Assembly: GCF_000309385.1 (NCBI RefSeq)
Contig: NZ_JH976537.1
Span: forward strand, 2,250,966 to 2,314,965
Origin: Nodosilinea nodulosa PCC 7104
Lineage (GTDB): Bacteria > Cyanobacteriota > Cyanobacteriia > Phormidesmidales > Phormidesmidaceae
Direction of reading: 5' to 3'
Length of the DNA: 64,000 nucleotides
Shown piece after piece: positions 47,105 to 63,532 of this stretch (positions within the stretch are counted from its first letter, which is position 1; every line of letters starts with the position of its first letter). Position numbers and translations under genes: made by a program. The notes beneath the pieces were generated by a model, which worked only from the letters and a program-made list of their open reading frames with translations, had not been told where the DNA came from and searched no databases.

Positions 47105-47644
47105 ATGGCCTTTTCTCGTCTACCCGGTACTAAGTTTTCGGTCTCCACCTGGGGACGCCTAGGGGCATCGGCAGCACTCTGCCTGATGGGCGCTGTCGGC
47201 TGCACTACCCCCGTGGAAGTCATGGATCCTGAGGCTGGAACCCCCGGCACTGAGCCACCTATGACCGATGAACCCACAGCCACAATCGACGTATTCTTCG
47301 GCGATGTCCCCAGCCCGGCCGGGGGTACCGTCAAGCAGCTCAGGCTGCCCGGCCCCCAAAGCGCAGCCCTAGTGACCTGTGACCAGGAGGGTTTTGTGCC
47401 CTTTGCCTACAGCGACACGGGTATGAACTGGGTCGGCTGCCAGGTGCCTAACCCCGGCGACACCGTGGGGCTTGAGTCGAGCCTCACCGAGCCTGTGCTG
47501 TCTGACGTACCCAGCCCCGTGGGTGGCACCGTGTCCCAGATCACTATTCCTGGTCCCCAGAGCGCCATTTCGGTGGTCTGCGAGACGGGTTCTCCCTTTG
47601 TGTATGAAGATCAGGGTACCTGGGTGGGCTGCGAGGGCAGCTAG
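47105..47644 (+). CDS. Putative lipoprotein with two tandem 45-residue repeats
   Basis: 179 residues. The N-terminus has a basic segment, a hydrophobic core and a lipobox-like LMGAVGC (Cys33), then an acidic Pro/Thr linker. Two homologous modules follow, at about residues 67-115 and 135-179. Each begins DVPSP(A/V)GGTV, continues with (L/I)PGPQSA and a Cys, and ends WVGC. Each module holds one Cys pair, which suggests a small disulfide-bonded fold on the cell surface. The family is not recognised. The stop codon TAG is part of the terminus of repeat element E. Confidence 0.75.
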   Translation: MAFSRLPGTKFSVSTWGRLGASAALCLMGAVGCTTPVEVMDPEAGTPGTEPPMTDEPTATIDVFFGDVPSPAGGTVKQLRLPGPQSAALVTCDQEGFVPFAYSDTGMNWVGCQVPNPGDTVGLESSLTEPVLSDVPSPVGGTVSQITIPGPQSAISVVCETGSPFVYEDQGTWVGCEGS

Positions 47645-49336: not shown

Positions 49337-49493
49337 CGGGTGAGTCTCCTTGGTGGCGGTGGTCAGCGTGAATTTGCCGAAACACCCTGAGCCGCGCAGC
49401 CAGTAGACAGCTTTGATTGTCGCCAAGATGGGGCGAGGTTGGGGGCCGCTGAGAGAATTCTTTACCTCAGCTCAGGCCACCGCCGAATATGAC

Positions 49494-49596
49494 AGCCATA
49501 GTCACGTTGGTTAGGACATCCAGAAACCCTATGAACGTTGAAACGTTTGAACGTTCACTGAAGACATGCTTTAACCAGACCGGCTACGGCTATACC
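49494..49596 (-). repeat. Palindromic 3'-UTR element with triple AACGTT, copy 1
   Basis: 103 bp beginning 19 nt after the stop of the hybrid kinase gene (minus strand). The centre has AACGTT at 49534-49539, 49542-49547 and 49550-49555, an exact 8-bp period, giving a 24-bp near-palindrome. Flanks form inverted arms (GGTTAGGACAT left / ATGCTTTAACC right). A second copy is at 63429-63532. It could be a stem-loop RNA element, a small transposable element or a protein-binding site. Confidence 0.75.
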
Positions 49597-63381: not shown

Positions 63382-63428
63382 AGCTGCCGCTGGAGGGCTC
63401 TATCAGGCGGTCTAAGTTAGCAAGATAT

Positions 63429-63532
63429 AGCCCTAGTCCATCGGGTTAAGACATTCAAAAGTCTGAGGAACGTTAGAACGTTCAAACGTTCTTAAAAAAA
63501 CTGTCCTCACCCGACTGGCTACAGCTATGTCC
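63429..63532 (-). repeat. Palindromic 3'-UTR element with triple AACGTT, copy 2
   Basis: 104 bp beginning 20 nt after the stop of the minus-strand gene at the window end. AACGTT occurs at 63469-63474, 63477-63482 and 63485-63490, again an exact 8-bp period. Inverted arms TCGGGTTAAGACA / TGTCCTCACCCGA flank the centre. It aligns along its whole length with copy 1 at 49494-49596, with conserved blocks ATAGC(C/T)GTAGCC and ATGTC(C/T)TAACC on the minus strand. Confidence 0.75.

Follow-up and report, generated by a model that had tools for sequence, protein, structure and literature searches.

The window analyzed here, a stretch of 64,000 nucleotides from Nodosilinea nodulosa PCC 7104, contains two short palindromic elements, both centered on three AACGTT hexamers (Table 1). 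Copy 1 sits in the gap between two minus-strand reading frames, one of which is presumably related to chlB, as judged by resemblance. Beside this minus-strand chlB-like gene, a 179-aa open reading frame (47105-47644) carries an internally repeated DVPSPxGGTV stretch. The pattern AACGTT-N2-AACGTT-N2-AACGTT was located exactly in both copies; in 100 dinucleotide shuffles it was never matched, even with 3 mismatches allowed, and a chance origin was therefore rejected. The palindrome with three AACGTT units at an 8-bp period, as described in the original prediction, is thus real. The two copies can also be aligned end to end, as had been claimed, with 69 of 104 positions identical and no gaps, and they represent two subfamilies.

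Element limits were set by the family alignment, with the terminal TA target counted in. Both copies are 104 bp long under this definition and begin about 3 bp to the left of the limits first proposed (49494-49596 and 63429-63532), which have been corrected accordingly. In copy 1 the left TA has decayed to GA and the right TA is intact (element proper, 49493-49592); in copy 2 the left TA is intact and the right one has decayed to TG (element proper, 63428-63527).

Table 1. Features of the two palindromic elements in the window (positions are those of the window)
Feature	Position	Strand	Basis
MITE copy 1 with target dinucleotides	49491..49594	+	covariance-model match G000:C1:2300456-2300559; copy alignment
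Copy 1 left TIR	49491..49519	+	2/29 mismatches to a consensus end
Copy 1 right TIR	49566..49594	-	5/29 mismatches to a consensus end
Copy 1 apex, three AACGTT units, 8-bp period, linkers GA and TG	49534..49555	.	motif position
MITE copy 2, second subfamily	63426..63529	+	covariance-model match G000:C1:2314391-2314494; copy alignment
Copy 2 left TIR	63426..63454	+	2/29 mismatches to a subfamily end
Copy 2 right TIR	63501..63529	-	2/29 mismatches to a subfamily end
Copy 2 apex, three AACGTT units, linkers AG and CA	63469..63490	.	motif position

The statement that the element exists in two copies holds inside the window and fails for the genome as a whole (G000; 6.9 Mb in 2 contigs), where 33 exact triple-AACGTT sites were found against 0 for a reversed control pattern. 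Covariance-model searching gave at least 139 distinct matches at E<=0.001 (149 rows, 10 of which repeat a match on the second strand), a lower bound obtained by scoring 150 of 1506 candidates. Sequences of 125 of these 139 copies were read; the 14 omitted were the weakest, so the copy counts given below lean towards well-kept copies. Treating copies with identical 20+20 flanking bases as one reduced the 125 to 118 distinct sites.

Copies range from 88 to 128 bp and contain no gene of their own. The element is an imperfect palindrome of about 100 bp with 29-bp TIRs (TATAGC...GTTAGGACAT) and a perfect 22-bp palindromic core, flanked by TA. The 104-bp consensus of 60 single-site copies, with hyphens added, is TATAGCCATAGTCACGTTGGTTAGGACATCCAGAAACCC-TATG-AACGTTCAAACGTTTGAACGTT-CATA-GGAGACATGTCTTAACCAGACTGGCCACAGCTATA. 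TA is present at both ends in 69 of the 118 distinct sites, and one or both sides differ in the other 49. Across the same 118 sites the base just outside the terminal TA is approximately random, with a weak palindromic target preference, AG-N-TA-N-CT. The midpoint of the element fell within an open reading frame in 9 of 125 copies, compared with 1211 of 2500 positions drawn at random from these loci when a simple ORF caller was used, which shows a strong bias to non-coding DNA. A third palindromic element of about 97 bp, with ends of the same type and a degenerate AACGTT core, was observed adjoining another MITE copy (L067:2674-2770).

Evidence for insertion comes from eight copies that share one place in an unrelated insertion sequence (L004, L005, L007, L008, L010, L117, L118 and L156), which has inverted ends ACCTGAGTTCGGG and a 292-aa transposase-like open reading frame. 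Long flanks were compared for five of them (909-918 bases to the left and 127-142 bases to the right of the start of the element); the other three have at least 10 bases in common on each side. Three exact empty sites at this place exist in the same genome (L270, L277 and L278), and six looser matches, with 2-3 mismatches, were found in other genomes. The left 510 bases of the three empty sites are identical to the filled copy L008 (510/510). The empty site reads GTGA-TA-TCAG and the filled site GTGA-TA-[element]-TA-TCAG, with TA duplicated in all eight filled copies. This exact empty site proves insertion with TA duplication. At the window's own locus, genomes G007 and G016 keep both neighboring genes and lack the element; their 21-bp spacer is too different to be aligned exactly, so this locus yielded no exact empty site and was not counted as one.

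The source of the ends was sought by scanning about 1.5 kb on each side of the 27 DDE_3 and 8 Y1_Tnp loci of the genome. No intact parent insertion sequence with these TIRs lies within 1.5 kb of any of the 27 DDE_3 loci, among which ends occur only in L067 and L075. The former was rejected as a parent because its ends belong to palindromic elements and not to an insertion sequence. In L075 the final 56 codons of a DDE_3 transposase are followed immediately by an element-like TIR, leaving a 3' transposase remnant with one TIR that has 8/29 mismatches to the left end of the MITE. Matches of any strength to this transposase fragment (E<=0.001) were found in 60 of 96 genomes. At 29 loci carrying relatives of the transposase (L087-L115), with ends counted within 10/29 mismatches, a facing pair of ends was seen at 11, one end or more at another 11, and no end at 7. 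Both ends of L087, L088, L091, L093 and L098 match a family end, namely the MITE left end, the MITE right end or the end of the L075 remnant, with 3-8/29 mismatches.

Six of these loci (L088, L091, L093, L098, L099 and L115) contain elements of 956-963 bp with TATAGC...TTAGGRC-type ends on both sides and varied flanks, which resemble the MITE only up to about base 29. Two overlapping reading frames are present in each of L088 and L093. Those of L093 match HTH_Tnp_IS630 (PF01710, 5.1e-9) and DDE_3 (PF13358, 8.4e-41); with the NCBIfam IS630 transposase model NF033545, the DDE part scores above the cut-off and the HTH part below it. These ends and the HTH and DDE_3 frames are features of IS630/Tc1-mariner elements, and the parent transposase is of the IS630 type (HTH plus DDE).

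With a probability of about 95%, we consider the element to be a MITE of an IS630-family insertion sequence, that is, a gene-less miniature transposon, because it has IS630-family TIRs, duplicates TA at an exact empty site, is dispersed through the genome and is biased to non-coding DNA. The original prediction held that nothing known has this design. For the whole element this view fails: the TIRs, the TA duplication and the exact empty site identify the copies as non-autonomous derivatives of an IS630-family element, the kind of finding that the original prediction had named as its refutation. An IS630/Tc1-mariner-family transposase would recognize the 29-bp TIRs, excise the MITE and insert it at a TA, which would be duplicated; it would probably act in trans. 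In PCC 7104 the transposase may now be supplied from elsewhere or may have been lost, since only a remnant was found in this genome.

A REPIN-type element, moved as a single-stranded hairpin by a Y1 (RAYT-like) transposase, would also reach high copy number as a hairpin-forming palindrome in mostly non-coding DNA, and the 8 Y1_Tnp matches offer a possible enzyme. Such elements make no target-site duplication, and here the empty site shows that TA was duplicated on insertion; the TIRs agree with the ends of IS630-family elements, and no element end was detected within 9/29 mismatches at the 8 Y1_Tnp loci, where about 3 kb was scanned at each as far as the contig allowed. A Y1/REPIN origin was rejected on these grounds and is hardly conceivable. 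The REP and REPIN sequences described in the portions consulted of PMC3733652 and PMC3116915 are likewise short, intergenic, high-copy palindromes, and the present element differs from those descriptions in its TA duplication, its IS630 TIRs and the lack of a linked Y1 transposase.

The element could also be read as a structured RNA gene or an RNA regulatory element multiplied by duplication, a very improbable alternative. Copy 1 does fold well (-30.4 kcal/mol, z -3.18, with 2 of 200 shuffles as good), and double-sided changes occur near the apex. A long inverted repeat, however, folds on either strand by construction, and the spread is explained by the TIRs, the TA duplication and the empty site. 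Rfam covariance models gave 0 matches over the gathering score in the window, and a known RNA family was rejected for this reason.

The apex of this IS630-family MITE is unusual and variable in unit number. Counted with at most one mismatch per hexamer, the run consists of three units in 75 of the 118 sites, the commonest state, of two in 18, of one in 10 and of four in 4, and is absent from 11. Some short runs result from point mutations; others are length changes in 8-bp steps, seen in copies of 88, 96, 112 and 128 bp. Among copies read from related genomes, taken from the best-scoring matches, those of G011 have other linkers and those of G012 other arms, and most of them keep AACGTT at the 8-bp period; of the 23 copies from G022, two carry two units. 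A comparison of the window's genome with 43 loci of G022, G011 and G012 gave no clear shared insertion: matching flanks proved to be other MITE copies, short stretches with several partners, or neighboring genes lying at unequal distances from the element (L558 and L563). A change of unit number at one and the same site could therefore not be demonstrated.

The original prediction proposed that the array might bind a dimeric protein, pair RNA with RNA or hold methylation sites. More generally, the apex could be a functional site, such as a dimeric operator, a nucleoid protein site or a methylation cluster, with the palindrome under selection. Mismatch to the consensus in 60 copies is lowest in the hexamers (5.5%), followed by linkers (8.3%), TIRs (9.4%), arms (10.2%) and TATA ends (10.6%); AACGTT cores with the 8-bp period recur in the G011, G012 and G022 copies, and similar arrays occur in other phyla. 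The lower hexamer mismatch is a modest difference, part of the seed alignment was selected by the exact core, and slippage or homogenization alone could account for it. The copies, moreover, have no common gene context, all four orientations of neighboring genes being seen (29, 26, 25 and 11 of 91), and 39 of 118 sites have runs below three units. A functional apex is thus regarded as unlikely, and the functions first proposed have no support beyond the modest conservation of the core.

Two copies show homogenized arms. In L156 (G000:C1:5825767-5825866) the two arms are exactly complementary, giving a 66-bp perfect palindrome, compared with 34 bp in its seven sister copies at the same place in the unrelated insertion sequence. 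In L200 (G000:C1:517857-517944) the arms are exact reverse complements over 38 bp. Judged from the sequences, such homogenization would be the outcome expected of template switching in a quasipalindrome. Quasipalindrome template-switch mutation, as presented in the sections consulted of PMC8794818 and PMC7202029, similarly turns the arms of imperfect palindromes into exact copies; the difference is that we infer it here from one repeat family, and it was not seen as a mutation. The element could fold into a DNA or RNA hairpin with its center, built of 8-bp AACGTT-N2 units, at the tip; the number of units probably changes when the palindrome is replicated, by slippage or template switching. Template switching would also give the homogenized arms of the two copies. 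The count of 19 compensatory cells, against a shuffle mean of 7.9 and a maximum of 15 in 500 shuffles, is inflated by the relatedness of the copies.

The triple pattern is not confined to this family. In 84,980 species genomes it occurs exactly in at least 116 stretches (L279-L394). Carriers include Nodosilinea and the filamentous cyanobacteria CCP5, CCT1 and CCP3, some of whose sites are MITE copies as judged by eye, and many Chloroflexi, Anaerolineales, Bacteroidetes, Thermoanaerobaculales and others. Within 50 bases on each side, the non-cyanobacterial sites are not MITE-like and consist of arrays of 3-15 octamers with changing linkers (for example L311, L327, L345 and L353). In filamentous cyanobacterium CCP5, four AACGTT arrays that are not MITE-like lie within 8 kb (L290, PYEQ01000003.1), and a MITE-like copy is also present (L332). 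Sixteen genomes chosen for having the pattern contain 2 to 136 exact sites, overlapping sites being counted apart, with the reversed control at 0 in all; the 11 non-cyanobacterial genomes among them contain 10 to 136, the maximum being reached in G460. The array lay inside an open reading frame in 29 of 91 cases, whereas random positions did so in 4328 of 4950. Nine loci with cyanobacterial titles, contigs below 4 kb and contig ends were dropped from this count, and some of the last 36 of the 116 loci may be cyanobacterial too.

The 128 AACGTT arrays in genomes have a mean of 5.3 units, and 143 of 423 neighboring linkers are equal; 26 arrays in viral contigs have 6.0 units and 41 of 104 equal linkers. 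Control hexamers in viral contigs gave 3.07 units and 8/15 equal linkers for TTGCAA, 3.9 units and 19/40 for AAGCTT, and two arrays of 5 units each with 6/6 for TTCGAA. At period 7 AACGTT itself gave 4.86 units and 85/100 equal linkers, and at period 9, 4.12 units and 76/87, behaving at both periods as ordinary microsatellites. The unit means in viral contigs show that array length sets AACGTT apart from AAGCTT and TTGCAA and not from TTCGAA, and the fractions of equal linkers show that linker variation sets period 8 apart from periods 7 and 9, with AAGCTT and TTGCAA not far off. By number of stretches in viral contigs, a special status of AACGTT at period 8 was rejected: 20 stretches were counted, against 21 for AAGCTT, 14 for TTGCAA and 2 for TTCGAA, and against 25 and 40 for AACGTT at periods 7 and 9.

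It is a speculative and rather doubtful idea that AACGTT-N2 arrays, found in several phyla and mostly between genes, form a separate DNA class that has no name yet, that the MITE apex is a captured instance of it, and that one hexamer-preserving process, either a binding protein or palindrome-driven template switching, shaped both. If such a class were real, its marks would be an exact 8-bp period, a hexamer that is kept, linkers that are free and tens of sites per genome. That unrelated phyla share this octamer pattern is a side lead that can be put to a direct test; a connection with the MITE core would be conjectural.

The MITE is patchily distributed in the genus: 18 of 26 genomes match it at E<=0.001, and the number of rows runs from 1 to 150 (no more than 150 candidates per genome were scored, and both strands were counted). 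The search of cyanobacterial genomes for the AACGTT triple that had been proposed with the original prediction was also carried out: in a sample of all cyanobacteria, 1 of 386 genomes was positive, the window's own, which was the sole member of its genus in the sample and one of three from its family. In G022, 17 of the 23 copies read, picked as the best matches, score at least 192 of 208 possible against the consensus of the window's genome; a recent MITE burst is therefore likely in this genome. The MITE-rich genomes G012 and G022 have no match to the transposase fragment. Conversely, the largest numbers of transposase-fragment matches, many of them weak or partial, were found in G017 and G019 (13 and 19), which have 1 and 2 MITE rows. 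This mismatch means that the present-day source of transposase is not established for MITE-rich genomes, and it counts against the MITE reading; the distribution could be explained if the parent was lost once a burst was over. Strong transposase matches together with 23-28 MITE rows were found in G016 and G020.

The element can be compared with several known systems. It resembles IS630/Tc1-mariner MITEs in its insertion-sequence-derived TIRs, the HTH and DDE transposase, the TA duplication, its short length, its non-coding location and its many copies; it differs from them in a center that is a variable array of 8-bp AACGTT-N2 units. In ISY100 of Synechocystis, a studied IS630/Tc1-mariner insertion sequence, TA insertion and duplication are described as demonstrated in vitro in the part consulted of PMC2170065. 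A further difference is that the TIR here belongs to an insertion sequence of about 960 bp with two overlapping frames. Nezha, cited in PMC10969869, is also a cyanobacterial MITE, a likeness by description. Literature searches, which lay mostly outside subscription papers, found no work on AACGTT palindromes in cyanobacteria, on intergenic AACGTT 8-bp tandem repeats or on Nodosilinea transposition and inverted repeats; in one on AACGTT tandem repeats in bacteria, the papers listed were unrelated, as judged by title and the start of the abstract.

The element is thus a new family of a well-known kind, the IS630-family MITE, and what looked like a puzzling design is accounted for as a mobile element of a familiar sort. 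For the genus, a family that numbers 139 copies or more in the window's genome is useful for annotation and strain typing. Its variable apex and two homogenized copies may, moreover, provide a natural record of palindrome mutation in bacteria.
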